From positions 160,351,465 through 160,415,464 of the forward strand of contig CP136068.1 in NCBI GenBank assembly GCA_032622095.1: 64,000 nt of DNA. The letters are read 5' to 3'. Origin of the DNA: Siphonodentalium dalli (lineage: Eukaryota; Mollusca; Scaphopoda; Gadilida; Siphonodentaliidae). Positions 1,751 to 55,973 of the stretch are shown one piece after another (position 1 is the first letter of the stretch; the number at the start of each line of letters is the position of its first letter). The translations under genes were made by a program, and so were the position numbers. Below the pieces are notes generated by a model. That model worked only from the letters and a program-made list of their open reading frames with translations. It did no database searches and had not been told where the DNA came from.

Positions 1751-1935
1751 GTACTTTATAGGGCTGCAACGATTCGTCGTGAAAACAATATATCGCGACA
1801 CACTTTCAAACGATACGCGTATCGTATATATCTTGCCATATGTATCGCGATATACGAAATCAAATAATTTCTGAAGATGGGCATGCATGTTGTGCATAAA
1901 AGCAGACATGTATGCATTGTTCTCTCAATTGTATA

Positions 1936-2396
1936 TGTGACCCGCCATATCAAATCCAGTCGTAATTCGGGATTTTTTTTACCCTGTGCCAATGCATTCT
2001 CTTATATATGCGAGTCGACCATAGGTCGCCTCGCATATATTAGAGAATGCATTGGCCTAACAATTTTTTATCATTTTTTTAAAATAAATGTTTCTGACAG
2101 TTTTTAGGACATAAAATAAAAAAAACATCCATTACCCTGCAGGGAGCCCCACACATATATAGAAGCATATAGAAGAGTGTCGTCTGCTCATGTTTGTCTG
2201 GGGCTATGTATGGGTGAAATTATAAAATTGTTAAAGAATACAAGAAAAAAATATTAAAATTGTAAAAAATTGTTAGGCCAATGCATTCTCTTATATATGC
2301 GAGGCGACCTATGGTCGACTCGCATATATAAGAGAATGCATTGGCACAGGGTAAAAAAATCCCGACTTACGACTGGATTTGATATGGCGGGTCACA
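1936..2396. mobile_element. MITE family A, copy 1 (TA target, palindromic core)
   Basis: The ends are inverted: tgtgacccgccatatcaaat at the left and its complement at the right, next to TA. Inside are two self-complementary blocks of about 67 bp (near 1990-2055 and 2278-2345), each reading ccaatgcattctcttatata, then gcgag, a short centre, and the complement. The two blocks are separated by an A/T-rich spacer. There is no protein-coding capacity. Size and TA target suggest a Tc1/mariner-like source, which is inference. Confidence 0.85.
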
Positions 2397-2597
2397 TATG
2401 TTTATTATATGTATTTTACACATCCAGCTAACTATTAAACTGCATTTTAGTTTAACATGAACTATATCTCCAATTACAAACATGTTGGTTCTGATAATTC
2501 AGGTCGTATTCACTTGGGAACAATATATAGTTCAATGTGATATTTATCGTATCGTTGATCACGTATCGTGATTCATATCGTATCGTCACCAAGTATA

Positions 2598-3016
2598 TGT
2601 GACCCGCCATATCAAATCCAGTCGTAAGTCGGGATTTTTTTACCCTGTGCCAACGCATTCTCTTATAATGCTTTGGCCTAACAATTTTTTATATAATTTT
2701 TTTTAAATAAATGTTTCTTACAATTTTTAGGACATAAAATAAAAAACATCCATTACCCTGCAGGGAGCCCAACACATATGTAGAAGCATATAGAAGAGTG
2801 TCGTCTGCTCATGTTTATCTGGGGCTCTGTATGGGTGAAATTATAAAATTGTTAAAGAATACAAGAAAAAATTATTAAAATTGTAAAAAATTGTTAGGCC
2901 AATTCATTCTCTTATATATGCGAAGCGACCTATGGTCGACTCGCATAAATAAGAGAATGCATTGGCACAGGGTAAACAAAATCCCGACTTACGACTGGAT
3001 TTGATATGGCGGGTCA
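2598..3016. mobile_element. MITE family A, copy 2, first core block deleted
   Basis: It has the same termini and spacer as the copy at 1936-2396 and the same orientation. The first palindromic core block is reduced to one arm (ccaacgcattctcttataat, then ctttggcc), as expected if a hairpin was lost during replication. The second block is intact. Confidence 0.85.
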
Positions 3017-3050: not shown

Positions 3051-4685
3051 AAGCGAGAGAATTCTATATAATAGGGGAGCCCAGAACGTTTTATTCGAAC
3101 TTTTGAGTACGAAAGGTTTCATGTGCCTGAATTGTCGAGAGGACCGGATGACGGAACAAACACAATTCTCATGTTTTTCAATTATAGCATAAAGGAGTCA
3201 CGAGTATACAAAACCACCCCAAAAATCACTTTTAACCGAACTTTTGATAGTTCCTTTTTCCTTTTATCAACTTTGATGTCAGTCAAAATCCAATAGTTGG
3301 GGTAGTGATTAGAGGGCAGGTTAGCCAATAATATTCATCGACCACAACTTGTAAGCGATTGCCAGACACAATATGGCAATATCTATCATTTGCCATATGT
3401 TGCCGGTTTTGTGGTTATTTTGGGTGAAAGTGATAACTTTGGCTCTATTGGAGTAGGATATTCATAGGTGATGATATGAAATACATATATCGCCCAGTTC
3501 TGCTCATGACTTGTTGAAATGTGACTAGAATCGCATTGAAATTGTTTGGTGTAATATTGTACCGAGTTCTGTAAACTCAACGTTTTTGGGGATCGAAAGG
3601 AGCTGGGACCCAATGATAATTAAAAATAAAGCCATAACTCTTCACCATTTTCAAGCAGTATAAATTGATATAGAAAATATTTCTCGGAAAATAGTCAAAA
3701 TTTCCACTTCCGGTGGCCATCTTGAACGGGAAGTTGCCATTTTGTCCTAAAAATGTGGCATTATGTCTGCGCAAACGCGCGTATAGAGATTTGCATATAT
3801 TTGCCAATTTTCTCTCTATATTTTGAAATAAACTGAGTACCTTGTCATAAGAACGGCAGCCATGTTTGACGCCATTCTGTGTAAACTCTGTTTTTATAAT
3901 CACTATAATATCCAGGTGTGATATTTCAAGCTCGATAGTTCGTTTAAAAGCATTTGTTTGGGGGAGGCGGTGTTTGGTGGGCCCATGGTCCCTTTATACT
4001 GTAATTTCGGAACTCAATGCATGGGATTTTTTCGTCACCAGTCCCTCTCAATAATTCAGGTACATCACGTCTTTCTTACGTACTTAATACTTCTGAGCTC
4101 CCTAACTAATATGTAGTCTCTTATCTTTTGAAAATACAATCATATTTCGGTCGATCTTGAAACCATAAGTGTCGATAGTAGCAGTCCATATGTTATGTAG
4201 GTATGTTTCACTGACGGATGCCGACTTCAAAAGTCGAGCAGTTAGTTTTGACTTTATTAACGTCGTACATTAATATTCAAAATATTACAAATAATGTTTG
4301 GTAATAACTTGTTTGAGCATCATCGAACCCGGTACACATCGTATTCTTAAGTTTATATTGTTATTGGAATTGTATCATTTGAGACGCTTATATGCGTATA
4401 CTCAATTTATTCCACACCCATTGACGTGAGGCACATGTATCCAACGGAATACAAGCCATTGAATACATATTGGTGTATACCTCTAGTGGAATACAAGCCG
4501 AAACTATGCTTGTTGACGTTGACGCCAAGAAAGATGACGTACATTACGTCGATCATCCGCTTCCGGTGATCCCCCCATAACTACTGGTTATGTGTCAGAC
4601 TTAAATCACATTAAAGGTAGCTACAGTAACAACGGAGGTGACATTCATGGATTGAACTAATCTGACTGAACGGTGTAGAATAAAT
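3051..4685. other. intron, nothing recognised
   Basis: No exon with good splice sites, no RNA gene and no clear repeat was recognised. The 108-codon minus-strand frame near 3577-3903 has no recognisable domain or protein-like pattern and was left out. Confidence 0.35.
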
Positions 4686-4848
4686 ACAGAACACAACTTG
4701 CATCATAATCTCGAATCTTTTATCGAACTCGTTGCGGACGGCGCAAAGTTATATTTCGCTCGAACTACGCTCTCGCGAAATATATCCTTGCGCCATCCGC
4801 AACTCATTCGATAAAAGATTCTCGATTAAGATGCGCGTTGTGTTCTGT
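4686..4848. mobile_element. small palindromic element (foldback MITE), 163 bp
   Basis: The sequence begins acagaacacaac and ends gttgtgttctgt. Most of its length pairs with itself (for example aatcttttatcgaa against its complement, and tatttcgc against gcgaaata near the centre). It has no coding capacity. Confidence 0.75.
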
Positions 4849-5140
4849 CTATGTCCATGTGCTATAAGTGACATTGAATTGAAGTGAAGAAACAATTATC
4901 GTGTTTAATTTGCCTCCATGAATCGCAAACAAATGGTTTGGAACAATAACAAATAAATGAAAATAAACAACATTATACTCCGTATACACACACGGGATAA
5001 GTTGTTTAACTCTTTATAACATGTCATCATCACTATAACATTATATTTGTATTTATTCATTGTGTTCTTGGGAGATAATAACATGTTTAAATCATCTTCA
5101 GTGAGAGTCTTCACGGATCATAAAGAGTTAATCCACTCAC

Positions 5141-5320
5141 CAGTTTCGTTGAGCATGGTTGCCACTGTGTTCCAAATGTCCATACTCTTGATCCTGACTA
5201 GGTGGCCTCCATCCCTGTTACACACATACTCTGCGTCGTATTGAATCACCGGAATTGTATATACTCTCAAGCAGATCATACTATCACCAACAGCTTCCCC
5301 GCGATAGCCGTCTGAACAGC
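5141..5320 (-). CDS. gene 1 exon 4: N-terminal half of C-type lectin-like domain
   Basis: On the minus strand a CAG acceptor (5323-5321) precedes the exon and a GTGAGT donor (5140-5135) follows it. The 180 nt read as two bases, 59 codons and one base. With the G of exon 3 the protein continues GCSDGYRGEAV, and later segments are MICLRVYTIPV, YVCNRDGGHLVRIKS and IWNTVATMLNE. The pattern C-x-x-G-Y, then a Cys, then A-E-x-V-C-x-x-x-G-G-x-L-V-x-I-x-S is the usual start of a long-form C-type lectin-like domain. The last base joins exon 5 in phase. The exon is not a long open frame from an ATG and was found by reading splice sites. Confidence 0.88.
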
Positions 5321-5412
5321 CTGGAAAACAGTTACTCAGATTGACAGCGTAAAGTGTGAACTATTTTGTCTAATTTGTGAATAATGGCACAGCTCTGGGC
5401 GGGTCAGTATAA

Positions 5413-8988: not shown

Positions 8989-9780
8989 TAAAAGCCGCAT
9001 AAACAACAATTTTATATTAACTAACGGTACATGTTCTCATTAGCATCGGGTTTTTTTCTCTCGAACTATAGCATCATAGCAAGTTAGTACGACCGCGTAA
9101 TCAGGTGTGGTACCATCAATGTCAGGTGTGTATATATGGTATAGTTGATGTGTGTATATGGTATAGTTGATGTGTATATATGGTATAGTTGATGTGTATA
9201 TATGGTATAGTTGATGTGTATATATGGTATAGTTGATGTGTATATATGGTATAGTTGATGTGTATATATGGTATAGTTGATGTGTATATGTGGTATAGTT
9301 GATATGTATATGTGGTATAGTTGATGTGTATATATGGTATATATGGTAATCAGGTGTGGTACCATCAATGTCAGGTGTGTATATATGGTATAGTTGATGT
9401 GTGTATATGGTATAGTTGATGTGTATATGTGGTATAGTTGATGTGTATATGTGGTATAGTTGATGTGTATATATGGTATAGTTGATGTGTATATATGGTA
9501 TAGTTGAAACAAACGTTGCTGTGCATGGACTAAACACCAATGAAAATGGACGGGAATGGTATGGACACATTAGACTGTCGGTTGAAGTTTGACAAAATCC
9601 AACTAAACCCTGGAAATGGGCATCCGGATCCCTTGTGAACTTAGCCTGGCTTACCATCTTTACCAGCTTATATTCTGATTGTTTGCTCTGCTTACAATCT
9701 GTACTAGTTCCTGTTCCGGGTATTTTGTCTATTTACCATCATTCTTAACCAGCTCCCATTCCTGTATCTTTGGTCTACTA
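8989..9780. repeat. duplicated block, copy B, expanded
   Basis: It starts aaagccgcataaacaacaat and follows the same landmarks as copy A (8372-8988). It is longer because the short tatggtatagttg segment has grown into a tandem array (9115-9507). The two blocks are adjacent and in the same orientation. Confidence 0.8.
9115..9507. repeat. 20-22-bp minisatellite with a higher-order duplication
   Basis: The unit reads about gatgtgtatatatggtatag plus tt. About ten units run to 9345, then a 30-bp segment reading aatcaggtgtggtaccatca also found at the start of the array reappears, followed by another seven or so units. This shows that array plus flank was duplicated once. Long minus-strand frames of 142 and 205 codons are generated by the repeat and are not genes. 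Confidence 0.9.
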
Positions 9781-10108
9781 CCATCTGTATTAACTCCCAT
9801 TCCGGGTTTTGTGTGTATTCACATCTGTATTAACTCCAATTCCGGTTTTGTTGGTGTACTCACCATCTGTATTAGCTCCCATTCCGGGTTTTTTGTCTAC
9901 TTACCATCTGTATTAACTCCCATTCCGGGTTTTGTGCGTATTCACATCTGTATTAACTCCAAGTCGGGGTTTTGTATGTACTCACCATCTGTATTAGCTC
10001 CCATTCCGGGTTTTTTGGTCTACTTACCATCTGTATTAGCTCCAATTCCGGATTTTGTGTGTATTCACATCTGTATTAACTCCCATTCTGGGTTATTTGT
10101 GTACTCAC
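9640..10108. repeat. tandem array of copies of the exon 2 / intron 2 junction
   Basis: About eleven units of 40-45 bp run up to the true end of exon 2. On the minus strand a unit reads ccggaatgggagct, a/g-tacagatg, then gtgag or gtaag, which is the last part of exon 2 and its splice donor. Some units have ctcaccat or cttaccat (donor GT kept) and others ttcacat (GT lost). In the right half they alternate as a three-unit higher-order repeat of about 124 bp, seen twice. The 161-codon plus frame here is an artefact. Confidence 0.85.
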
Positions 10109-10354
10109 CATCTGTATCAGCTCCCATTCCGGGTTTTTCTCCAGCTTTCCGTTCGGGTTCTTGACCCAGCTTTCTGACATCTTACATTTGCCAGTTTTCT
10201 CGTGATATGCAGCAGTCACACAGTCGTCGTGCAGCGCGCATTTTTTCATGCATGCCTCGATGCCTGAGGATGTGACAGTCTTCATATATCCCGCATCGGA
10301 CTCGTCGATGACTAGCCCCTTTGTTGTGTTCATTGGGGGGACGATCACTCCGAC
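10109..10354 (-). CDS. gene 1 exon 2: second PAN/apple-like domain
   Basis: The exon follows a TTCAG acceptor (10357-10355) and ends in ATG before GTGAGT (10108-10103). It is 246 nt, 82 codons, phase 0 at both ends. Cysteines fall at residues 35, 39, 45 and 57 (C-x3-C-x5-C-x11-C), in IEACMKKCALHDDCVTAAYH and GKCKMSESW. This spacing is identical to that of exon 1. The segments NPNGKLE and WELIQM match NPNAELE and CEFVQK of exon 1. PAN/apple modules bind proteins or carbohydrates in extracellular proteins; binding here is unknown. Immediately past the donor the exon edge is repeated about eleven times. Symmetrical phase 0 means the exon could be duplicated or skipped without a frameshift, so exons 1 and 2 probably arose by duplication. 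Confidence 0.8.
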
Positions 10355-10389
10355 CTGAATTACCATGAATGATGTTTTAGTTTACAGGA

Positions 10390-11069: not shown

Positions 11070-11493
11070 GTATTGTCCTTTACCAGAATCAATCGAGTCG
11101 GAGACGAGATTCATTCTGGTAAAGAACAATTCGCGTGTGATGATAAGGCCCCCGTTTGGCCTCAAATCAGGAACGATAACTCTATCCGACTTTTACTCCG
11201 CAGTACTCCCGTTGGAGTTTGACCTATATTCTCCGCCCACGCGTCGGTCTACTTGTACCGGTTGGACATGTCCGGACATGACCCGCTGGTTATATCCAGA
11301 CTTTTCCATATGAATGGTATAGTATCTACATGTATATCACGTGATGATCTCGGTGGGGTAGCTTCAGTCTTTAATTTTAAAGGGACACTAGGCTCTCACT
11401 GGGGATGATTATTAAAGTGACACTCACAATGGATGAATGTTAAAGTAACGCATGGCGCACACTGTGGGATAATGTTAAAGTGACACTCGCATT

Positions 11494-11600
11494 GAAAAGT
11501 TCAAAAAGTTCAAAAAGTTCAAAAAGTTCAAAAAGTTCAAAAATTTCAAAAAGTTCACAAATTTCACAAATTTCACAAATTTCAAAAAACTTCAAAAATT
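11494..11600. repeat. gttcaaaaa tandem tract, left arm (short)
   Basis: A 9-10-bp unit (aaaagttc / aaatttca) is repeated about eleven times. The right-arm counterpart at 16252-16484 is about twice as long, so this tract has changed length since the arms became identical. Confidence 0.8.
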
Positions 11601-11627
11601 AAACAAAATTCAGGATTTAGTCATAAA

Positions 11628-11711
11628 TGTGACCCGCTATATCAAATCCAGTCGGAAGTCGGGATTTTTTTTATCCTGTGCCAATGCATTCTCTTATATA
11701 TGCGAGTCAAC
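11628..11711 (+). repeat. MITE-A-like left terminus inside the palindrome
   Basis: It begins tgtgacccgctatatcaaat and continues through the gtcgggattttttt and ccaatgcattctcttatata segments up to gcgagtcaacc, as in MITE family A with a handful of substitutions. It then passes into CCG-rich sequence instead of the MITE centre. The mirror copy ends at 16223. Confidence 0.8.
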
Positions 11712-11718
11712 CAGCCGC

Positions 11719-11749
<31 letters not shown>

Positions 11750-11856
11750 CGTAATGCGCATGTCAACGCCGCGCCGCCGCCGCCGGCGGCGGCGGCGGCA
11801 ACTACATAATCCTATGGCATGCAAAGAAATTGGCGGCGGCGCTGCCGCCGGCGGTT
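11712..11856. repeat. CCG-rich module, left arm, outer
   Basis: It contains two (GGC)n runs separated by cgtaatgcgcatgtcaacgc and by a link with catgcaaagaaattggc, and ends at ttcaggatttagtc. It lies between the 207-codon gene and the outer terminus. Poly-Ala, poly-Arg and poly-Gly frames seen across it are repeat artefacts. Confidence 0.8.
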
Positions 11857-11992
11857 CAGGATTTAGTCAAAAATATGGCTTGTTTCCATTCATCGGAAAG
11901 CTATGGGGGTACGGTGGTGAGCGCCACTGAAAAAAGCAAGTGAGCGAGGGGAAAAAAGAGAAAAATAACATGACAAGTAGTACATAGTACAA

Positions 11993-11998
11993 TTTATT
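11993..11998 (-). terminator. polyadenylation signal of the left 207-codon gene
   Basis: AATAAA on the minus strand lies 7 nt past the TAG/TGA region of the gene that ends at 12006, giving a very compact 3' end. The mirror copy is at 15851-15856. Confidence 0.6.
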
Positions 11999-12005
11999 AT
12001 ATTAA

Positions 12006-12629
12006 CTATTCACAGTCACTTTCGTCCGAATTGTCATCACAGGAATCAACCTTTTTTATTTTTAATGAAGAATCACCATAACTCCATACTATTCCAAATG
12101 TCCATACGAGTTCATAATCTAAATCTGAAACAGGTCTAGTGTTTTTTACAATATAATCCAAAGACACTTTTTCTTCAAATAACTTTTCAACAGTGAAAAT
12201 TGTACATGGTTCTCGGAGAATAATGTATCCATATATTCTCGTCACCTCTTCGAATTTCAAAGTTTTTTCATTGAGAATCCTGTCTTGATATTCAGCAAAG
12301 CGAGTAAAATTATTTCCAACTAATTCACGAATTGCGTTTATTTCGTTTTTAGGAACACCATGAAATATCCAATAATCTGAAAACATTTGATCCAATATAT
12401 CCATTAAGAAATCAGTTTCAAATTCTGATCTCTCAATCAAACATCTCAGTCGACTCTGTCCCTCAGAGAAATGTCCGTTTAGCAAAGTCTCCATTATAAT
12501 TCTACTTTCCCTCAAAAACCAAGCTTGCTTAAGTTCTTGTTTGATTTCTTGATCCATTTTTGACATTTCGATCAAATTATTATAAATTTTCAAAAGCATC
12601 TCTGCTGGTAACACATCAATTCCATCCAT
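12006..12629 (-). CDS. 207-residue protein with F-box-like N-terminus (left arm)
   Basis: The first ATG of the frame (12629) gives MDGIDVLPAEMLLKIYNNL at the N-terminus. LP-x-E-M-L-x-x-I-x-x-x-L matches the first helix of F-box domains, which bind Skp1 in SCF ubiquitin ligases. The second half of the consensus is weak (KQELKQAW). The rest is helical and charged, with RCLIERSEFETDFLMDILDQ and YELVWTFGIVWSYG, and ends in an acidic tail DSCDDNSDESDCE. I do not recognise the family beyond the F-box hint. The open frame extends 25 codons upstream without ATG. It differs from the right-arm copy by one residue (Asn against His in IVK-N/H-TRP). Purifying constraint or very recent duplication could explain this; flanking noncoding sequence is also nearly identical, so recency is enough. 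Confidence 0.55.
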   Translation of the reverse strand: MDGIDVLPAEMLLKIYNNLIEMSKMDQEIKQELKQAWFLRESRIIMETLLNGHFSEGQSRLRCLIERSEFETDFLMDILDQMFSDYWIFHGVPKNEINAIRELVGNNFTRFAEYQDRILNEKTLKFEEVTRIYGYIILREPCTIFTVEKLFEEKVSLDYIVKNTRPVSDLDYELVWTFGIVWSYGDSSLKIKKVDSCDDNSDESDCE

Positions 12630-12795
12630 AAGGAATTGTGTTGTATTCACCCACAACAAGTCGTTTGGTGTACACAGATCGGAATGTTTTTGTTTGCTCT
12701 TCACTAATTACTTCTCGGTTCTTTGTGCGTTTAATTCTGCATGGATAGTTTATGACACGTTGAAAATTTAGCCGGTCGTTAACACATTCAACCAT
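12616..12795 (-). CDS. 59-codon frame overlapping the 207-codon gene (left arm)
   Basis: The frame from ATG at 12795 ends at 12616 and overlaps the start of the downstream gene by 14 nt in another frame. It encodes MVECVNDRLNFQRVINYPCR, a basic middle, and ends in NTIPYGWN. The product is unrecognised. The sequence is protein-like in composition but short. It is identical to the right-arm frame at 15054-15233. It might be a real small protein, an upstream frame, or the 5' part of a formerly single frame. Confidence 0.3.
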   Translation of the reverse strand: MVECVNDRLNFQRVINYPCRIKRTKNREVISEEQTKTFRSVYTKRLVVGEYNTIPYGWN

Positions 12796-12907
12796 TGAAT
12801 GAAAATTTATTTGCTGGTATCTGTTGCTGTTCCACACGTGGCGTCACATTTCCTGCATACAGTGGAGTCGACATTTGCGTTGTTGCAGGAACATGGATCC
12901 ACGAGTC

Positions 12908-12928
12908 GACCAGCCGCCCGCGGCGGCG

Positions 12929-12984
<56 letters not shown>

Positions 12985-13079
12985 TGTAATGCGCATGTCA
13001 ACGCCGCGCCGCCGGCGGCGGCGGCGGCGGCAACTACATAATCCTATGGCATGCAAAGAAATTGGCGGCGGCGGTTAAG
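12908..13079. repeat. CCG-rich module, left arm, middle
   Basis: It holds an almost pure (GGC)n run of about 65 bp, then tgtaatgcgcatgtcaacgc, a second run, the catgcaaagaaattggc link and gttaaggatttagtc. It separates the zinc-finger gene from the 59/207-codon pair. Such runs are prone to hairpin or G-quadruplex formation. Confidence 0.85.
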
Positions 13080-13086
13080 GATTTAG

Positions 13087-13260
13087 TCAGTGATGATACT
13101 GTTGTTGTTGTTGTTGTTGGTGTTGTTGTTGTTGTTGTGGCTGATGATACTGTTGTTGTTGTTGTTGTTGTTCTGAAGGCGTGTGTTTAACTTTGATATG
13201 ACGCTTCAAACTATCTTGCCAAGCATAGACACTTAAGCACTCTTCACGTTGATACTTCAT
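13087..13260 (-). CDS. C2H2 zinc-finger-like small protein, left arm (first Cys lost)
   Basis: ATG at 13260 and TGA at 13089-13087 give 57 residues. The N-terminus reads MKYQREECLSVYAWQDSL, then KRHIKVKHTPSE and a glutamine-rich tail. A classical C-x2-C-x12-H-x4-H finger would need Cys at residue 5, but the codon is CGT (Arg); the right-arm copy has TGT (Cys). Residue 19 is Lys here and Thr in the right arm. The left protein therefore probably cannot fold as a zinc finger. A TATA-like box lies 45 nt upstream. Confidence 0.5.
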   Translation of the reverse strand: MKYQREECLSVYAWQDSLKRHIKVKHTPSEQQQQQQQYHQPQQQQQHQQQQQQQYHH

Positions 13261-13304
13261 TTTCCTATATAATCAGTGAAATCGAGCGTTCTTCTATGCA
13301 CCTA

Positions 13305-13314
13305 TATTTATATA
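13305..13314 (-). promoter_or_regulatory. TATA box for the left zinc-finger gene
   Basis: TATATAAATA on the minus strand lies 45 nt before the ATG at 13260, a normal distance for a core promoter with a 5' UTR of about 20 nt. It is the mirror of 14535-14544. Confidence 0.5.
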
Positions 13315-13341
13315 GAACAGAAACAAGGGAAACGTGGTGGA

Positions 13342-13548
13342 CTAGTTAACTAGTTCAGGCTGTCGTTCACAACGTCTCTTAGTGTTGTTTGTACTGGATA
13401 CAAATTTATCACATTGGCTACAATACAACCTACCTATCCAAATGTCAATGCAATTATGAGTGAATTCAATATGAGAGTATATATATAAGCATTTGTATCG
13501 ACATCTCGTGAATCTATCGAAATATCTTACTTCTCTTTCCAAATTGCG
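13342..13548 (-). other. 66-codon open frame without ATG (left arm)
   Basis: The frame contains RCRYKCLYIYSHIEFTHNC and YCSQCDKFVSSTNNTKRRC and ends ERQPELVN, then a stop. The second part resembles the start of a zinc finger (C-x2-C) but with Cys thirteen residues later rather than His. No ATG is present, so if used it must be a spliced exon or have a non-ATG start. It is identical in the right arm (14301-14507). Confidence 0.25.
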
Positions 13549-13710
13549 TAATAATTATGTTGAGGTTCAGTGGGTACGTCCTATATATCCAGCTGAAGGC
13601 AGAATGGACAATTGCTTCCTCTGATGTACAGTTAGTTTGAATCAGTAAACATATGCACATGATTGTGTCTGTGCAACTTGAAACAATACAATTAAAATCT
13701 GGTCGTTTTC

Positions 13711-13775
13711 GGCGGCGGCCGTAATGCGCATGTCAACGCCGCGCCGCCGGCGGCGGCGGCGGCGGCGGCGATTAA
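13711..13775. repeat. CCG-rich module, left arm, inner (short)
   Basis: It contains ggcggcggccgtaatgcgca and one (GGC)n run, then gattaaggatttagtc. It lacks the link with catgcaaag found in the other modules. Confidence 0.8.
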
Positions 13776-13901
13776 GGATTTAGTCACAAATATGGCTTGT
13801 TTCCATTCATCGGAAAACTATGGGGGTAAGGTGTTTCATTTCTAATTTTAGATGTTAAATGTGCCGACATTGTTCTTTGTTGTTGTAAAAAAATTGGCGC
13901 G

Positions 13902-13932
13902 CGTGCGGCCCCCATCACCCCCTCACTGCCGC
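13902..13932. other. spacer at the centre of the palindrome
   Basis: The perfect pairs aaaaaaattggcgcg and cgcgccaattttttt flank a 31-bp unpaired stretch, cgtgcggcccccatcacccc and following bases. This would be the hairpin loop if one strand folded back. Confidence 0.85.
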
Positions 13933-14061
13933 CGCGCCAATTTTTTTACAACAACAAAGAACAATGTCGGCACATTTAACATCTAAAATTAGAAATGAAA
14001 CACCTTACCCCCATAGTTTTCCGATGAATGGAAACAAGCCATATTTGTGACTAAATCCTTA

Positions 14062-14104
<43 letters not shown>

Positions 14105-14140
14105 GCGCGGCGTTGACATGCGCATTACGGCCGCCGCCGA
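14062..14140. repeat. CCG-rich module, right arm, inner
   Basis: It is the mirror of 13711-13775 with a longer (CCG)n run. It begins just after gactaaatccttaac and ends at gcgcattacggccgcc. Confidence 0.8.
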
Positions 14141-14300
14141 AAACGACCAGATTTTAATTGTATTGTTTCAAGTTGCACAGACACAATCATGTGCATATGT
14201 TTACTGATTCAAACTAACTGTACATCAGAGGAAGCAATTGTCCATTCTGCCTTCAGCTGGATATATAGGACGTACCCACTGAACCTCAACATAATTATTA

Positions 14301-14507
14301 CGCAATTTGGAAAGAGAAGTAAGATATTTCGATAGATTCACGAGATGTCGATACAAATGCTTATATATATACTCTCATATTGAATTCACTCATAATTGCA
14401 TTGACATTTGGATAGGTAGGTTGTATTGTAGCCAATGTGATAAATTTGTATCCAGTACAAACAACACTAAGAGACGTTGTGAACGACAGCCTGAACTAGT
14501 TAACTAG
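14301..14507 (+). other. 66-codon open frame without ATG (right arm)
   Basis: This is the mirror copy of the minus-strand frame at 13342-13548, with the same C-x2-C-x13-C segment and no ATG. Identity of both copies does not prove coding, since surrounding noncoding sequence is equally conserved. Confidence 0.25.
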
Positions 14508-14534
14508 TCCACCACGTTTCCCTTGTTTCTGTTC

Positions 14535-14544
14535 TATATAAATA
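14535..14544 (+). promoter_or_regulatory. TATA box for the right zinc-finger gene
   Basis: TATATAAATA lies 45 nt before the ATG at 14589. No intron is needed between it and the start codon. Confidence 0.55.
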
Positions 14545-14588
14545 TAGGTGCATAGAAGAACGCTCGATTTCACTGATTATATAGGAAA

Positions 14589-14765
14589 ATGAAGTATCAA
14601 TGTGAAGAGTGCTTAAGTGTCTATGCTTGGCAAGATAGTTTGACGCGTCATATCAAAGTTAAACACACGCCTTCAGAACAACAACAACAACAACAACAAC
14701 AGTATCATCAGCCACAACAACAACAACAACACCAACAACAACAACAACAACAGTATCATCACTGA
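14589..14765 (+). CDS. C2H2 zinc-finger small protein with Gln-rich tail (right arm)
   Basis: ATG at 14589 and TGA at 14763-14765 give 58 residues. Residues 4-26, YQCEECLSVYAWQDSLTRH followed by IKVKH, form a full C-x2-C-x12-H-x4-H finger with Cys5, Cys8, His21 and His26. The remainder is TPSE followed by two or three glutamine runs broken by YHQP and H, ending YHH. A single finger with a Gln tail suggests a nucleic-acid or protein adaptor; target and function are unknown. The CAA-rich coding tail is a codon-repeat tract that differs in length between arms. It lies between a TATA box and a CCG module. It is too short for most ORF filters. Confidence 0.6.
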   Translation: MKYQCEECLSVYAWQDSLTRHIKVKHTPSEQQQQQQQQYHQPQQQQQHQQQQQQQYHH

Positions 14766-14776
14766 CTAAATCCTTA

Positions 14777-14867
14777 ACCGCCGCCGCCAATTTCTTTGCA
14801 TGCCATAGGATTATGTAGTTGCCGCCGCCGCCGCCGCCGGCGGCGTGGCGTTGACATGCGCATTACA

Positions 14868-14929
<62 letters not shown>

Positions 14930-14939
14930 GGGCGGCTGG
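14777..14939. repeat. CCG-rich module, right arm, middle
   Basis: It starts after gactaaatccttaac and holds the tttctttgcatgccatagga link, a short run, gcgttgacatgcgcattaca and a (CCG)n run of about 60 bp, ending gcgggcggctgg. Large Ala, Arg, Pro and Gly homopolymer frames across it are artefacts. Confidence 0.85.
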
Positions 14940-15053
14940 TCGACTCGTGGATCCATGTTCCTGCAACAACGCAAATGTCGACTCCACTGTATGCAGGAAA
15001 TGTGACGCCACGTGTGGAACAGCAACAGATACCAGCAAATAAATTTTCATTCA

Positions 15054-15233
15054 ATGGTTGAATGTGTTAACGACCGGCTAAATTTTCAACGTGTCATAAA
15101 CTATCCATGCAGAATTAAACGCACAAAGAACCGAGAAGTAATTAGTGAAGAGCAAACAAAAACATTCCGATCTGTGTACACCAAACGACTTGTTGTGGGT
15201 GAATACAACACAATTCCTTATGGATGGAATTGA
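15054..15233 (+). CDS. 59-codon frame overlapping the 207-codon gene (right arm)
   Basis: ATG at 15054, TGA at 15231-15233. It overlaps the next start codon (15220) by 14 nt in the +1 frame. The protein has CVNDRLNFQRVINYPCR near the start, a basic KRTKNRE segment and a VVGEYNTIPYGWN end. It is not recognised. It is identical to the left-arm copy. Confidence 0.3.
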   Translation: MVECVNDRLNFQRVINYPCRIKRTKNREVISEEQTKTFRSVYTKRLVVGEYNTIPYGWN

Positions 15234-15843
15234 TGTGTTACCAGCAGAGATGCTTTTGAAAATTTATAATAATTTGATCGAAATGTCAAAAATGGATCAA
15301 GAAATCAAACAAGAACTTAAGCAAGCTTGGTTTTTGAGGGAAAGTAGAATTATAATGGAGACTTTGCTAAACGGACATTTCTCTGAGGGACAGAGTCGAC
15401 TGAGATGTTTGATTGAGAGATCAGAATTTGAAACTGATTTCTTAATGGATATATTGGATCAAATGTTTTCAGATTATTGGATATTTCATGGTGTTCCTAA
15501 AAACGAAATAAACGCAATTCGTGAATTAGTTGGAAATAATTTTACTCGCTTTGCTGAATATCAAGACAGGATTCTCAATGAAAAAACTTTGAAATTCGAA
15601 GAGGTGACGAGAATATATGGATACATTATTCTCCGAGAACCATGTACAATTTTCACTGTTGAAAAGTTATTTGAAGAAAAAGTGTCTTTGGATTATATTG
15701 TAAAACACACTAGACCTGTTTCAGATTTAGATTATGAACTCGTATGGACATTTGGAATAGTATGGAGTTATGGTGATTCTTCATTAAAAATAAAAAAGGT
15801 TGATTCCTGTGATGACAATTCGGACGAAAGTGACTGTGAATAG
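15220..15843 (+). CDS. 207-residue protein with F-box-like N-terminus (right arm)
   Basis: Mirror copy of the gene at 12006-12629. The start at 15220 is chosen because it is the first ATG and places the F-box-like segment VLPAEMLLKIYNNL at residues 6-19, the usual N-terminal place. Residues 20-190 are predicted by eye to be mostly helical, with no known motif. The C-terminus has a run of Asp, Ser and Glu. The only protein difference from the left copy is His in place of Asn in the IVK-x-TRP segment. AATAAA follows the TAG stop by 7 nt. If F-box function holds it would act in substrate selection for ubiquitylation; that is inference from one helix. Confidence 0.55.
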   Translation: MDGIDVLPAEMLLKIYNNLIEMSKMDQEIKQELKQAWFLRESRIIMETLLNGHFSEGQSRLRCLIERSEFETDFLMDILDQMFSDYWIFHGVPKNEINAIRELVGNNFTRFAEYQDRILNEKTLKFEEVTRIYGYIILREPCTIFTVEKLFEEKVSLDYIVKHTRPVSDLDYELVWTFGIVWSYGDSSLKIKKVDSCDDNSDESDCE

Positions 15844-15850
15844 TTAATAT

Positions 15851-15856
15851 AATAAA
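15851..15856 (+). terminator. polyadenylation signal of the right 207-codon gene
   Basis: AATAAA follows the stop codon at 15841-15843 by 7 nt. It is followed by a T-rich stretch, ttatttttctcttttttccc, that could act as downstream element. Confidence 0.6.
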
Positions 15857-15992
15857 TTGTACTATGTACTACTTGTCATGTTATTTTTCTCTTTTTTCCC
15901 TCGCTCACTTGCTTTTTTCAGTGGCGCTCACCACCGTACCCCCATAGCTTTCCGATGAATGGAAACAAGCCATATTTTTGACTAAATCCTGA

Positions 15993-16095
15993 ACCGCCGG
16001 CGGCAGCGCCGCCGCCAATTTCTTTGCATGCCATAGGATTATGTAGTTGCCGCCGCCGCCGGCGGCGGCGGCGCGGCGTTGACATGCGCATTACG

Positions 16096-16137
<42 letters not shown>

Positions 16138-16139
16138 TG
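15993..16139. repeat. CCG-rich module, right arm, outer
   Basis: It starts after gactaaatcctgaa, has the tttctttgcatgccatagga link and the gttgacatgcgcattacg segment, and ends in a (CCG)n run followed by gctggttgactcgc, the MITE-A-like terminus. Confidence 0.8.
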
Positions 16140-16223
16140 GTTGACTCGCATATATAAGAGAATGCATTGGCACAGGATAAAAAAAATCCCGACTTCCGAC
16201 TGGATTTGATATAGCGGGTCACA
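16140..16223 (-). repeat. MITE-A-like right terminus inside the palindrome
   Basis: Mirror of 11628-11711. It ends in atatagcgggtcaca. Confidence 0.8.
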
Positions 16224-16251
16224 TTTATGACTAAATCCTGAATTTTGTTTA

Positions 16252-16484
16252 ATTTTTGAAGTTTTTTGAAATTTGTGAAATTTGTGAAATTTGTGAAGTT
16301 TTTTAAGTTTTTGAATTTTTTTTAAGTTTTTGAAGTTTTTCGAAATTTTTGAACTTTTGTAAGTTTTTGAAATTTTTGAACTTTTTGAAATTTTTGAAAT
16401 TTTTGAAATTTTTGAACTTTTTGAACTTTTTGAACTTTTTGAACTTTTTGAACTTTTTGAACTTTTTGAACTTTTTGAACTTTT
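16252..16484. repeat. tttttgaac tandem tract, right arm (long)
   Basis: About 23 copies of a 9-10-bp unit. It gives a Lys/Ser-rich minus-strand frame (15918-16499) that is an artefact. The left-arm counterpart is half as long. Confidence 0.85.
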
Positions 16485-16858
16485 CAATGCGAGTGTCACT
16501 TTAACATTATCCCACAGTGTGCGCCATGCGTTACTTTAACATTCATCCATAGTGAGTGTCACTTTAATAATCATCCCCAGTGAGAGCCTAGTGTCCCTTT
16601 AAAATTAAAGACTGAAGCTACCCCACCGAGATCATCACGTGATATACATGTAGATACTATACCATTCATATGGAAAAGTCTGGATATAACCAGCGGGTCA
16701 TGTCCGGACATGTCCAACCGGTACAAGTAGACCGACGCGTGGGCGGAGAATATAGGTCAAACTCCAACGGGAGTACTGCGGAGTAAAAGTCGGATAGAGT
16801 TATCGTTCCTGATTTGAGGCCAAACGGGGGCCTTATCATCACGCGTGCTCTGACCGAC

Positions 16859-21822: not shown

Positions 21823-22298
21823 TGTGACCCGCCATATGTGACCCGCCATATCAAATCCAGTCGTAAGTCGGGGTTTTTTTTACCCTTTGCCAATGCATTC
21901 TCTTATATATGCGAGCCGACCATAGGTCGCCTCGCATATATAAGAGAATGCATTGGCCTAACAATTTTTTATAAAATATTTTTAAATAAATGTTTCTTAC
22001 AATTTTTAGGACATAAAATAAAAAAACATCCAATACCCTGCAGGGAGCCTCACACATGTATAGAAGCATATAGAAGAGTGTCGTCTGCTTATGTTTGTCT
22101 GGGGCTCTGTATGGGTGAAATTATAAAATTGTTAAAGAATACAAGAAAAAATTATTAAAATTGTAAAAAATTGTTAGGCCAATGCATTCTCTTATATATG
22201 CGAGGCGACCTATGGTCGACTCCCATATATAAGAGAATGCATTGGCACAGGGTAAAAAAAATCCCGACTTACGACTGGATTTGATATGGCGGGTCACA
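21823..22298. mobile_element. MITE family A, copy 3, doubled left end
   Basis: The left terminus tgtgacccgccata occurs twice in a row (21823 and 21837), then the element continues as in copy 1 with two palindromic core blocks and a right end gcgggtcaca. The doubled end suggests insertion of one copy next to a partial older end, or slippage. Confidence 0.85.
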
Positions 22299-22721
22299 TA
22301 TGTCCGCTAACATGGGTGAAGCATTCAGTGCAGGTTGGAATAAAATGATGTGAAGGCTATGATATATTTTTATATATATTTCTCTGTGGCTAAAATATAC
22401 TATTTCGACTCGATGTATCTATATAATGTTGTGGAAAATTATTTCTGAGACAGAGCACGGGGGTCTGCATATTTTTTCCAGACACAAGGCGGGGATGGGT
22501 GGGTATGTCTGGGCCGGAAAAAAATTAGTAATGCAATTTTGTTCCTGCACTGAAATTGACTCATGTGTATCCTCTACTAAACATCTTACTAAAAAAAACT
22601 AAATGTAATTAGCCTACTGAAGAGCATATACGAAAAATGTTGGTACAATGATATCTTTAATGATAATCATAGTAAACCTGGTCAAAGAAATAAGTTGAGG
22701 ACGTATGGAACATTCAAGTTT
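22299..22721. other. intron, nothing recognised
   Basis: No feature was recognised. Confidence 0.3.
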
Positions 22722-25990: not shown

Positions 25991-26171
25991 TGGATAACAT
26001 AATCTCCTGGTTTTTCGTTCTTAAATGGTGCAGATGTGCACAATGTTCTCAAATGGTGTACATATAAAAAGCGCTGTAGAATGTAGAATGTGATAATTTG
26101 TTTCTATGCAGAATGCACTGCACGAATCTCAACACTTCCAGCTGCGCAGTTGGGTTTTCCATTTTTCTTAC

Positions 26172-26474
26172 CTTTTGTACGAACTCACAGCACGAGTCTT
26201 CTTCCAGTTCCGCGTTCGGATTTTCTAACCATGTCGAAGACATTCGGCACTCACTCTTGTCTTTGTCATATAAAGCAGACACGCACGAGGCACGCGATGT
26301 ACACTTCCGGCTGCATTTTATAATGTCTGCCGCGAAAACGGCTTCAAGAAGTCCGTCATCCGAAGTGTCGAATGCCCGATTCTGTGCTCGTTCAAAATGT
26401 GTTGTCTTTGCGACAAGTCTCCCCACAATATAAGCTATCACTGGAATAATGTACGTAATCGAGCCGCCCCTCAT
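26172..26474 (-). CDS. gene 1 exon 1: signal peptide and first PAN/apple-like domain
   Basis: The start at 26474 is chosen because it begins a good signal peptide, MRGGSITYIIPVIAYIVGRL, with likely cleavage near VA-KTT. An upstream in-frame ATG at 26528 would put 18 polar residues before it. The exon ends at 26172 in AAAAG before GTAAGA, 303 nt, phase 0. Cysteines at residues 54, 58, 64 and 76 (C-x3-C-x5-C-x11-C) match exon 2 exactly, in KCSRKCTSRASC and SECRMSSTWLENPNAELE. Two further Cys (95, 96) lie near the end. The secreted product would have PAN, PAN, half EGF and C-type lectin-like modules, 344 residues in all, and may act as an extracellular recognition or adhesion protein. Joining it to exon 2 across 15.8 kb is inference from phase, strand and homology; other exons may lie between. 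Confidence 0.72.
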
Positions 26475-26640
26475 ATTGCTCGTATTTGCATGACATTGAT
26501 GTGTCGATGGAACTACATGTAGAATCAAAGAGTTGTAAACCGTATTTTTAAAACCTCAGAACTTAAGTTTTAGATGATGGAACGGTGCCCGGCAGTTATC
26601 GATACATCTTCTCTTGAAATATTCCGAGCACGATCAGCTT
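26475..26640 (-). promoter_or_regulatory. 5' UTR and core promoter region of gene 1 (not resolved)
   Basis: Sequence directly upstream of the ATG. A TTTAAAAATA stretch on the minus strand near 26545-26555 could be a weak TATA-like element, but no start site can be fixed. Confidence 0.3.
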
Positions 26641-44942: not shown

Positions 44943-45309
44943 AAAATGTTGAATATATATAGGTATTCATTGAAGAGTGCAATTTGGTTCTGCATGCGCA
45001 GTGATTTATTTTAAAAAAAACTTGAAATAGTGGATTTGGCACTAGCCTTATCTGATTTGGTTATAGCTCATATCGTAAATTTGTCAGGATAAGAGTCAGC
45101 TGTCTATCGATCCCGCAGACTATAAATAGTCAGCTATAATAGCGCTAACAATAACACACAATAACTAACTACTAAATGTTAATTCGTTAAACGCCGCTTT
45201 ACGAAGTGTCTTTGAATAACTACACATTTAGGGAATAACTAGCATGATAGGGAAAACAAAGAGACACATTTCTGGATCAATATTGAAAATAAACCTTTCT
45301 GAGAAACTT
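44943..45309. other. nothing recognised
   Basis: No feature was recognised. Confidence 0.3.
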
Positions 45310-45881
45310 TAGTTAGAGTTATTGTTAACGCTATTAGCTATATCTGGCATCCCCGTACGGACATAGCAGATGTTATTGTTAGCGCTATTAGCTATATATG
45401 GCATCCCCGAACGGACATAGCAGATGTTATTGTTAGTGCTATTAGCTGTATAGGGTATCCCCGTACGGACACAGCGGATGTTATTATTGCGGCTATTAAC
45501 CGAACAGCGTCTTCCCGTACGGACATAGCAGATGTTATTGTTAGCGATATTAGCTATATGTGGCATCCCCGTACGGACATAGCGGATGATATTGTAAGCG
45601 CTATTAGCTATATGTGGCATCCCCGTACGGACATAGCGGATGTTATTGTTAGCGCTATTAGCTATATATGGCATACCCGTACGGACATAGCGGATATTGT
45701 AAGCGCTATTAGCTATATGTGGCATCCCCGTACGGACATAGCGGATGTTATTGTTAGCGATATTAGCTATATGTGGCATCCCCGTACGGACATAGCAGAT
45801 GATATTGTAAGCGCTATTAGCTATATATGGCATCCCGTGCGGACATAGCGGATGTTATTGTTAGCGCTATTAGCTTATATT
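45310..45881. repeat. 54-bp satellite, first block, about 10 copies
   Basis: The unit reads gcgctattagctatatatgg, catccccgtacggacatagc, ggatgttattgtta. The unit length is a multiple of three, so frames stay open on both strands (174 and 96 codons), giving repeated MPHIANSAYNI-type and MWHPRTDIADV-type peptides. No other coding evidence exists. Confidence 0.9.
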
Positions 45882-46531
45882 ATATCTCACGTGACTTTCT
45901 CGCATTCTGATTGGCTGGCCACTGCTATACTATTTTACGATAGTACCTCAGTAGGATTCCTACATGCCTACTATTCTTTTTTCTATTTATAGTAACAAAC
46001 TCATTTCGCGAAATAGGGCTGCCGCCTGAAGATACGGCCAATTTTAAACTATACCTTGTGCGATATTTGTTGCAATATCGGTATAGCCTTATATTTATTG
46101 ATGAATTGCAATGATCTTACAAATTTCCGATGATATCAAGCCAATGTATTTAATAGTTTGTCCGTTTAGTTGGCAAGCGGCCAGTCCTAATTTTTGTAAA
46201 GCCAGTGGACGTTATTTATAATTTCCTTTTCCGGTTAATCGAAGTTAAACTAGTTAATTCTAAAATTTCGCCAAAATGTCTTTGCTAATGACCTATTTAT
46301 ATAAATAAATGTATGAATCATGAAGAGATGCTGTTAGATGTAACTAATAACATAGTTATGCTCCCCTGCCATCGTAAAAATATTGCCGTAAATTGTAAAA
46401 TCTGAGACCGATTTCCAAAATTCAAGGTAAATAAAAATGTGACAAAATCAGACTCAGATATTGTGTGAGAATTGGCACAAATGTTCGATATAATATAATA
46501 AATAATGAATGTCTTGTCGTTGACTATGCCA

Positions 46532-46606
46532 AAATAGTGGTCCTCGAGGAGGAATAGTCCACTCGCCTGCGGCTCGTGGACTATTCCTCCTCGGGGACCA
46601 CTATTT
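46532..46606. repeat. 75-bp near-perfect hairpin
   Basis: aaatagtggtcctcgaggag and ctcctcggggaccactattt pair; the loop is about actcgcctgcggctcgt. It lies 2 bp from the next hairpin. Confidence 0.85.
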
Positions 46607-46607
46607 A

Positions 46608-46753
46608 GGAGATAAACATACCCTGTTGAGTTGTACATTCTGGGATTCGAGCATGAAAACAGTTTGTGAACGAGCCGGCTTGCCGGCGAGTTCACAAACT
46701 GTTTTCATGCTCGAATCCCTGAATGTACAACGAAACAGGGTATGTTTATCTCC
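46608..46753. repeat. 146-bp near-perfect hairpin
   Basis: ggagataaacataccctgtt at the left and cagggtatgtttatctcc at the right, continuing through attcgagcatgaaaacagtt and its complement to a gagccggcttgccggcg centre. Few mismatches. Confidence 0.85.
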
Positions 46754-47246
46754 ATTGTAATTCAATCTAGCAAGAAATTTGCAAAAAAACTGTATAAAAA
46801 GTATCATTTAGTCATTTTCATGACACGAATCGAGACTTTCATTTCGCCGTTGTCACCGTGCACAAATCTTGGGTTTGTTCATTGCGTTACTCGGAACAGT
46901 GCTCCGTAACCATTTCCTGTGGGGCGGGTTGTCTCGTTTCGCTACTCCGTTCTGCGCCGATAAAATTGTACCGTGCGACATTCAGATTTGATGCACGCTG
47001 AAGCGGCCAATGAACGGTATCTATAGACAACAACGCGCGGGTGTGTTCGTTTCGCTACTCGTTCTGCGCCGATGCAATTTGACCGTGCTACATTCAGATT
47101 TGATGCACGCTGAAGCGGCCGATGTCGGTGAATCGAAAACGAAAGTTAGCCGCTCTCGGCCAATCAGAATGCTTGTTTTTAGTGACAAATACTCAATTGA
47201 ATTACAATTTGCCATAGTCAACTCCAAGCCATTCATTATCTATATA

Positions 47247-48367
47247 ATATAGGGTATCCCCGTACGGACATAGCGGATGTTATTGTTAGCGATATTAGCT
47301 ATATGTGGCATCCCCGTACGGACATAGCAGATGATAGTGTAAGCGCTATTAGCTATATATATGGCATCCCCGTACGGACATAGCAGATATTATTGTAAGC
47401 GCTATTAGCTATATATGGCATCCCCGTACGGACATAGCAGATATTATTGTAAGCGCTATTAGCTATATATGGCATCCCCGTACGGACATAGCAGATATTA
47501 TTGTAAGCGCTATTAGCTATATGTGGCATCCCCGTACGGACATAGCAGATGTTATTGTTAGCGCTATTAGCTATATATGGCATCCCCGTACGGACATAGC
47601 AGATATTATTGTTAGCGCTATTAGCTATATGTGGCATCCCCGTACGGACATAGCGGGTGTTATTATTAGCGCTATTAGCTATATATGGACTCCCCGTACG
47701 GACATAGCAGATATTATTATTAGCGCTATTAGCTATATATGGCATCCCCGTACGGACCTAGCGGGTGTTATTATTAGCGCTATTAGCTATATATGGCATC
47801 CCCGTACGGACATATATAGCATATATTATTGTTAGCGCTATTAGCTATATATGGCATCCCCGTACGGACATAGCGGGTGTTATTATTAGCGCTATTACCT
47901 GAACAGCGTCTTTCCGTACGGACATAGCGGATGTTATTATTAGCGCTATTAGCTGTATATGGACTTCCCGTACGGACATAGCGGATGTTATTATTAGCGC
48001 TATTAGCTATATATGGTATCCCCGTACGGACATAGCGGGTGTTATTATTAGCGCTATTAGCTGAACAGCGTCTTTCCGTACGGACATAGCGGATGTTATT
48101 ATTAGCGCTATTAGCTATATATGGCATCCCCGTACGGACATAGCAGATATTATTGTTAGCGCTATTAGCTGTATATGGAATCCCCGGTACGAACATAGCG
48201 GGTGTTATTGTTAGCGCTATTAGCTGAACAGCGTCTTCCCGTACGGACATAGTGGATGTTATTATAAGCGCTATTAACTGAACAGCGTCTTCCCGTACGG
48301 ACATAGTGGATGTTATTATTAGCGCTATTAGCTGAACAGCGTCTTCCCGTACGGACATTGCGGATGC
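47247..48367. repeat. 54-bp satellite, second block, about 20 copies
   Basis: The same unit as 45310-45881. Toward the right a variant with ctgaacagcgtcttcccgta replaces the ctatatatggcatccccgta part, first alternating with the standard unit and then alone in the last three units. Long minus frames (130 and 191 codons) are repeat products. Confidence 0.9.
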
Positions 48368-54900: not shown

Positions 54901-54982
54901 TTAATGTTGATGGTTTTGCTGGCATGTGGAAATTCTACATTTCGGGTGTTAGGAAACCTGTCTTATTTATAGCATCCACAGC

Positions 54983-55560
54983 ATATAGTATGAACACACA
55001 CACACAACATTCTCACAAGATAGTATGAACAAACACACACAACATTCTCACAAGATACCATAAATATACATTCACAGCATATAGTATGAACAAACACACA
55101 CAACATATAGTATGAACAAACACACACAACATATAGTATGAACAAACACACACAACATATAGTATGAACAAACACACACAACATATAGTATGAACACACA
55201 CACACAACATATAGTATGAACAAACACACACAACATATAGTATGAACAAACACACACAGCATATAGTATGAACAAACACACACAACATATAGTATGAACA
55301 AACACACACAACATATAGTATGAACAAACACACACAACATATAGTATGAACAAACACACACAACATATAGTATGAACAAACACACACAACATATAGTATG
55401 AACAAACACACACAACATATAGTATGAACAAACACACACAACATATAGTATGAACAAACACACACAACATATAGTATGAACAAACACACACAACATATAG
55501 TATGAACAAACACACACAACATATAGTATGAACAAACACACACAACATTCTCACAAGATA
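54983..55560. repeat. 26-bp minisatellite, about 20 copies
   Basis: The unit is acaaacacacacaacatata plus gtatga, very homogeneous. The phrase cattctcacaagata flanks both ends and appears twice at the left. Minus frames of 160-217 codons (repeated CVCSYYMLCVFVHTIC-type peptides) are repeat products, not genes. Confidence 0.95.
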
Positions 55561-55570
55561 CCATAAATAT

Positions 55571-55712
55571 GTACAGTAATGCCCTAAATAATCGACTCCT
55601 TAACCATGGCTTTGCGATGAATGGCAACAAGCCATATTTCCGACTGAATCCTGAAAAATTACCCATAATTCTGCTGTGGTTAAGGAGTCGATTATTTAGG
55701 CCATTACTGTAC
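55571..55712. mobile_element. 142-bp palindromic element related to the giant palindrome
   Basis: Ends gtacagtaatgccctaaata and atttaggccattactgtac with cgactccttaacca/tggttaaggagtcg inside. Its centre, gcgatgaatggcaacaagcc, atattt and gactgaatcctgaa, closely matches the ccgatgaatggaaacaagcc, atattt and gactaaatcctgaa found next to every CCG module in the palindrome. Confidence 0.7.
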
Positions 55713-55973
55713 CTCTCGTGTTGTAACAGTCAACAATTAAAGTGAGGAGGACTATAAATATTATGGATGGTACTAAAAACACATGAGTTGGTGGTATCAA
55801 CTACAAACAGTGGCGCCGATGTACCACTTAACGAAAGTAAGTGGAATACAGCGTAGAAGTTAAAATTAGCGGCGATGTACGGAATACCCGTTATCATGCA
55901 TGCAATAAGCCGTACCAAAAGGGCGGGGTGGAGACACACTCAAAGTTATACAGTAGGGGACTGATATACAAAC
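55713..55973. other. intron of gene 2, nothing recognised
   Basis: No additional exon was recognised next to the transmembrane exon. Confidence 0.3.

Follow-up and report, generated by a model that had tools for sequence, protein, structure and literature searches.

Mobile palindromes with Polinton-derived cargo in a scaphopod genome

We analysed a 64,000-nucleotide stretch of Siphonodentalium dalli contig CP136068.1 (the window), in which a long palindrome occupies positions 11138–16841, both arms and the spacer included. The palindrome is real. An original prediction, made from the sequence alone, described arms of about 2.8 and 2.9 kb around a 31-bp spacer, each with a C2H2 frame, a 59-codon frame and a 207-codon frame that all point outward, and this description is confirmed (Table 1). 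Its starting coordinate, 11132, is the first base of the left target-site duplication; the element proper starts at 11138. In a global alignment the arms differ by 9 substitutions over 2,757 aligned positions (0.33%), and outside simple repeats they differ at 4 of ~2,191 positions. Seven indels separate them: six lie in simple repeats, with the largest (128 bp) in a 9-bp tandem array, and the seventh is a single base in a G run. A chance origin is excluded by kilobases of complementarity. The 207-amino acid (aa) frame is the ATG-initiated part of a 232-aa GTG frame, the 59-codon frame is likewise part of a 73-aa GTG frame, and AATAAA lies at 15851, 3ʹ of the right 207-aa frame. The C2H2 frame matches a zinc finger with an E-value of 6.8e-4, below the curated cut-off, and the F-box-like helix mentioned in the prediction has no support in Pfam.

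The window palindrome belongs to a mobile family. The absence of any other copy or homologue would have refuted the original prediction, but a search of the host assembly (2.23 Gb, 9 contigs) gave many relatives. These were selected by their likeness to the window arm, which biases any count of palindromes among them; throughout, the sequence searches gave scores for the best candidates only. A 22-place pattern of the terminus matched 292 times on the forward strand and 286 times on the reverse strand (578 matches), and its reversed control did not match at all. Pairing was analysed for the first 100 of these 578 matches: 78 form 39 inward-facing pairs less than 20 kb apart, there are no outward-facing pairs, and two matches are same-strand neighbours. 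The paired elements are 2.2–14.6 kb long, and 16 of the 39 fall within 13.95–14.6 kb.

Target-site duplications were examined in 26 units (L numbers denote loci and C numbers contigs), 20 of which had both ends present; L023, L028, L031, L032, C1:106110k and C2:156463k were omitted from the count, having an end that was missing or unmatched by the pattern. An exact 6-bp duplication flanks 17 of the 20 units, and all 17 sequences are different. L035 has a 6-bp duplication with one mismatch, and the flanking 6 bp of L030 and L057 are unmatched as scored. By eye, one end of L057 consists of three TGA units, and ATTACC stands on both sides of this element if the extra terminal TGA is counted as part of it. 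A 6-bp target-site duplication and a short repeated end motif are both traits of Polintons (also called Mavericks). The window element has both, with TGATGA at each end, the triplet being TGA and not AGT. At L032:2998–3030, a second family terminus starts within another element's centre core, which looks like an insertion into the middle of a palindrome.

The palindrome exists prior to insertion, since the duplications enclose the whole structure and the same centre is found at unrelated sites. This centre, with a loop of 28–31 nt, is common to 5-kb and 14-kb palindromes. Hence, the window turn-back is older than the present arms and was inherited while the arms changed. We also compared the terminal 300 bp of the 20 units with both ends, setting the two ends of each copy against each other and against the nearest end of another copy. 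The median difference was 0.17% between a copy's own ends and 2.33% to the nearest end elsewhere; the within-copy difference was lower in 14 of the 20 units, equal in three and higher in three.

What do the arms carry? The original prediction recognised no protein beyond the two motifs mentioned above, but two of the frames can be identified: the 59-codon frame encodes the C-terminal end of a Polinton PolB, and the 207-codon frame corresponds to a gene of Polintons. In each arm, the last 66 codons of PolB lie together with the 207-aa gene in one 775-bp block, which is 99.5–99.6% identical to locus L051 and 95.5–95.6% identical to L052. The Polinton gene order at both loci is PolB, then the 207-aa gene, then an ATPase frame. 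PolB in L051 matches PF03175 (E 4.4e-42), and the ATPase frame in L052 matches Pox_A32 over the cut-off (E 3.3e-6). A further 82 bp in each arm, joined to the 775-bp block with a 2-bp overlap, are identical to part of another open frame from that Polinton family; in the copy at C2:24623394, this part lies ~4 kb upstream of the PolB match. The 207-aa protein also has a homologue, 57% identical, in a more distant Polinton whose PolB frame is 952 codons long; the right flank of this PolB family was followed without reaching an element end. Across the assembly, 150 of 1,559 candidate places for the 207-aa protein were scored. This protein has no significant match in Pfam, PHROGs gave nothing convincing, its predicted structure is poor (mean pLDDT 41.7) and unfit for a structure search, and no relatives of it or of the ATPase were confirmed in viral contigs.

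The PolB sequence of the window element is limited to the last 66 codons, and falls short of the full protein-primed PolB of a Polinton. PolB loci were checked on contig C1 and in the listed part of C2: of the 30, none lies inside a pair of family termini, and the nearest terminus is 8.7 kb away. Together, these observations make the window element a Polinton derivative and not a full member; since none of the 30 loci is enclosed, the palindrome family seems to depend on others for its polymerase. No integrase, protease or capsid was recognised among the selected frames that were scanned; the longer elements were not read through, and no search was aimed at integrase or capsid. The scanned frames of the window element also include no match to a packaging ATPase. 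The assembly contains several families of Polintons whose open PolB frames are numerous and nearly identical. The genome seems to hold recently active Polintons.

Sister elements with the same ends carry other genes. L057 (C2:44708272–44710435) has an intact 493-aa frame at 564–2045; its product combines a C2H2-like stretch with an ATPase domain of A32 type (Pox_A32, above the cut-off at E 6.2e-6). Genome-wide, 87 of 4,809 candidate places for this ATPase were scored; 28 outward-facing pairs within 6 kb account for 56 of the 87, and there are no inward-facing and no same-strand pairs. The 3ʹ end of the L057 gene and the module downstream of it are 93% identical (170 of 183 positions) to their equivalents at the 207-aa gene in the window. 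Therefore, judging from this shared tail, the 207-aa gene seems to have taken the place of an earlier gene in front of it. Palindromes L033, L034 and L035 have an intact, outward-facing frame of 193–203 aa on each side of the centre. One copy each was scanned from L033 and L034, and both match the Bcl-2 family (PF00452; E 5.4e-14 and 1.3e-11, respectively); Bcl-xL is the best match of solved structure for the L034 copy. The 14-kb elements, read in part, have few long open frames, and in the one at C2:156463k the 207-aa gene lies close to each end. We considered the 14-kb elements as candidate autonomous members and rejected this, the three that were tested (C2:156463k, C2:74193k and C1:127049k) being palindromic in the parts read; two of the 16 listed pairs in this size class were examined.

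Three palindrome centres, L064, L036 and L049, lie in sequence with a known unfolded parent and have loops of 55–114 nt. In L064, the strand passes along the 207-aa gene and turns at AAGACA, which occurs as a 6-nt inverted repeat in the parent, leaving a 114-nt loop. In L036, where the parent is the window module that follows the 207-aa gene, the turn is at AAGTGA/TCACTT with a 71-nt loop, the microhomology being judged by eye. L049 turns inside PolB with a 55-nt loop, a local deletion and ~3 nt of microhomology, again by eye. Junctions of this form would be expected where a 3ʹ end had primed on its own strand.

How could such elements be made? The observations establish mobile palindromes with 6-bp duplications, cargo derived from Polintons, and centres that turn at short inverted microhomology. 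We propose, as the probable explanation, that a Polinton-like linear element with (TGA)2 ends gave rise to the window element by snap-back, and that this derivative, itself non-autonomous, was remade outside the chromosome and integrated in trans. In protein-primed replication by strand displacement, a free 3ʹ end could fold onto its own strand, prime on a few bases of inverted microhomology, and copy the arm. The product would be first a hairpin and then a palindrome with the same end for replication and integration on both sides. The polymerase and integrase of a helper Polinton would act in trans, replicating the molecule and inserting it with a 6-bp duplication. Equalisation of the arms would happen extrachromosomally, and template switching could swap the cargo, which would account for the PolB tail with the 207-aa gene, the ATPase, the Bcl-2 frames and the DNA with few open frames. 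The original prediction offered a head-to-head dimer left by hairpin-end replication as one of two origins. The molecule is indeed head-to-head, and turn-back replication explains it best. The turn itself seems to come from an internal strand snapping back at microhomology and not from replication of a hairpin chromosome end.

Several observations weigh against the snap-back proposal. No element that has these ends and carries a PolB was found among the PolB and terminus matches listed; integrase was not searched for. In the copy read, TGATGATA is not the start of the Polinton that donated the 207-aa gene: most of its longer matches begin at query positions 1576–1670, at a hairpin-like repeat. 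We infer the strand, the primer and the enzymes of the snap-back step. Two of the 17 duplications are of low information, CCCCCC in a C run (L019) and the terminus-like GATGAT (L029). The ATPase frame of L051 matches Pox_A32 with an E-value of 0.0016, below the cut-off that is passed in L052 only, which, like the tie of the window element in the end comparison, slightly lowers our confidence in the snap-back proposal. In the end comparison, the ties are the window element, L017 and L020, and the opposite trend is seen in L019, L024 and L027, in each of which one end resembles another copy more closely than it resembles its partner. L027 is the clearest of these in number (8.86% within the copy and 2.00% to another copy); its two ends are clearly different and yet stand inside an exact duplication, a sign that elements may have recombined before insertion. 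The 14 units with more similar ends include L057, although its inverted ends are shorter than the 300 bp compared (20.0% versus 21.2%). The inner and gene modules are near-identical between copies and so provide no test of arm homogenisation; their likeness suggests that the spread was recent. Symmetry is also incomplete. Among the window element and 20 relatives (one of them, L032, read in part only), the 207-aa gene is on one side only of the stretch read in L021, L024, L026, L027 and L028. L057 is not a palindrome: within its 2,164 bp, a single gene stands between inverted ends of 192 bp. Eight further centres were sampled: in L060, L061, L062 and L064 self-complementarity extends through the centre, in L059 the matching arms enclose ~470 bp that lack symmetry, in L063 the match is limited to 52 bp, and L058 and L065 are not palindromic.

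The other origin offered by the original prediction was a foldback transposon with cargo genes. The elements are mobile and foldback-shaped, given the 6-bp duplications and the 578 terminus matches. Foldback transposons such as Tetris, Tm1, Galileo and TU have very long modular inverted repeats with tandem arrays in the arms, and they are tied to cut-and-paste superfamilies and are not known to be derived from Polintons. A classical foldback DNA transposon (Mutator-, P/Galileo- or TU-like) that captured Polinton fragments and was moved by a cut-and-paste transposase would match the modular long inverted repeats, the arrays in the arms, the mobility and some one-sided members. However, the duplications here are 6 bp long, and those of the foldback families differ in length; the cargo identified is of Polinton type (the 207-aa gene and the A32-type ATPase, while Bcl-2 could come from elsewhere); no transposase was recognised among the scanned frames of the window element, L057, L033 and L034; and new centres arise at microhomology inside the cargo. 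We consider this origin unlikely. It is also improbable, in our judgement, that the elements are the separate parts of a multipartite genome, of a Polinton or a virus, that works as a virus-like system when a polymerase-bearing element is included. Elements with shared ends do carry different intact genes: the 493-aa A32-type ATPase, Bcl-2 in L033–L035, and the 207-aa gene in many. However, the copies are very recent, such that intactness is no sign of selection; truncated cargo also spreads (L064); and no PolB lies inside terminus pairs at the 30 loci, segments with capsid or integrase not having been searched for. A bolder version of the snap-back proposal would make the family a self-sustaining satellite system of endogenous Polinton viruses, remade by snap-back, packaged by a helper (with an upper size class of 14.0–14.6 kb) and with virus-type genes such as the packaging ATPase or Bcl-2 spread over its elements as a divided, virophage-like genome; this we regard as doubtful.

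The two remaining explanations concern the chromosome and the assembly. Gene conversion keeps the arms of sex-chromosome palindromes alike, and the almost identical arms would fit a monomer that was duplicated inverted in place and then homogenised in the same way. Such an origin is very improbable: 6-bp duplications are intact around whole palindromes at unrelated sites, and the sharing of one centre core by 5-kb and 14-kb palindromes needs the palindrome to have existed before insertion. Long palindromes are hard to assemble, which is a general point in favour of an artefact. Nonetheless, the arms differ by their 9 substitutions and the 128-bp array difference, the element has its own target-site duplication, and other copies have different flanks and different duplications; we therefore give duplication by the assembler almost no credence. 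We also considered a separate lineage for each arm, on the A side and the B side of the spacer, and rejected it, side-specific divergence having no consistent pattern.

How does the proposed snap-back derivative compare with known systems? SYREC, a symmetric recombinant of adenovirus 12 and cell DNA, reportedly has the same virus end twice and an interior palindrome of captured DNA; it is said to be from a laboratory virus stock and not integrated. The nearest described process among those looked into is the snapback genome of adeno-associated virus. These are defective-interfering genomes in which an end is copied back, giving symmetric and asymmetric forms and dimers of inverted coding sequence that depend on a helper (PMC8235507). 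The likeness would lie in an end copied back on itself and in the presence of both symmetric and asymmetric forms. In contrast, adeno-associated virus is a parvovirus found in virions, whereas the elements described here are chromosomal insertions with a parent that was likely protein-primed. Vertebrate Mavericks have repeated 6-bp end motifs such as (AGT)2 together with 6-bp duplications, and the motifs have been linked to jumping-back in protein-primed replication (PMC8097293); the (TGA)2 ends are a close parallel. The palindromes resemble Polintons in their 6-bp duplication, repeated-triplet ends, PolB tail and 207-aa gene, and in the A32-type ATPase of sister elements. They differ in being palindromic over nearly their whole length, where Polintons have shorter inverted ends around single-copy genes, in having no full PolB recognised in the elements read here, and in ending in (TGA)2 instead of the (AGT)2 or (AG)3 reported for Mavericks (PMC8097293). 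We found no title or abstract opening on palindromic Polintons in the open-access papers searched, a scope outside which most subscription papers fall.

What would be the significance of snap-back? It is hard to see directly whether the Polintons of animals go on replicating as linear, protein-primed genomes outside the chromosome. Turn-back loops, equality of ends within a copy and intact 6-bp duplications together form a footprint of this kind of replication that an assembly is enough to reveal, and 578 termini in one genome make the question testable. If the proposal is true, it would explain the spread of very long, near-perfect, gene-bearing palindromes.

Table 1. Positions of the parts of the window element, and of the outward-facing frames of three sister palindromes (positions within the named locus).
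Feature	Position	Strand	Remark
Left target-site duplication, CGCGTG	11132–11137		Abuts left element end
Right target-site duplication, CGCGTG	16842–16847		Abuts right element end
Left palindrome arm	11138–13901		2,764 bp
Right palindrome arm	13933–16841		2,909 bp
Asymmetric spacer	13902–13932		31 bp; within centre core common to 5-kb and 14-kb palindromes
Terminal triplet repeat (TGA)2	11138–11143	+	Start of conserved terminus
Terminal triplet repeat (TGA)2, mirror	16836–16841	-	
9-bp tandem array, left arm	11490–11612		Approximate limits; right-arm array 128 bp longer
GC-triplet-rich separator module 1	11615–11930; mirror ~15918–16236		Approximate limits
GC-triplet-rich separator module 2	12897–13080; mirror ~14772–14952		Approximate limits
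GC-triplet-rich separator module 3	13706–13835; mirror ~13999–14143		Approximate limits
Left copy of 207-aa Polinton gene	12006–12629	-	
Right copy of 207-aa Polinton gene	15220–15843	+	
Left C-terminal 66 codons of Polinton PolB	12619–12816	-	59-codon frame inside
Right PolB tail	15033–15230	+	ATG frame 15054–15230
Left 82-bp piece of another open frame, same Polinton family	12815–12896	-	2-bp overlap with PolB tail
Mirror copy of 82-bp Polinton piece	14953–15034	+	
Left C2H2 and poly-Q frame	13087–13260	-	57 aa; domain call from right copy
Right C2H2 and poly-Q frame	14589–14765	+	58 aa
L033, Bcl-2-type frames	3804–4382 and 4764–5342		
L034, Bcl-2-type frames	3410–4018 and 4338–4946		
L035, frames	3738–4346 and 4666–5274		

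Elsewhere in the window, frames with PAN-domain matches flank the palindrome on the minus strand (10079–10381 and 26052–26555), and an immunoglobulin domain lies at 58605–58997. Domains of these types point to an animal host. The original prediction placed the palindrome in a lectin-gene intron, which was not confirmed: the flanking frames tested are PAN-domain matches, and no search was aimed at a lectin domain. Arrays of 22-bp and 41-bp tandem repeats lie directly to the left of the palindrome (9053–10131), and long tandem arrays that are open in several frames lie at 45303–48367 and 54966–55729. Dispersed short elements with inverted ends are found at 1932–3016, 21836–22299 and 62368–62833, and ~90 bp of them are also present in the outer palindrome arm, at ~11622–11713. 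Outside the window, the hairpin-like repeat near which most of the longer donor-Polinton matches start (L056:1576–1700) is also found in tandem in the flanks, and a 1,920-codon frame at C7:11950620 was considered and rejected, being mostly a stretch of N.

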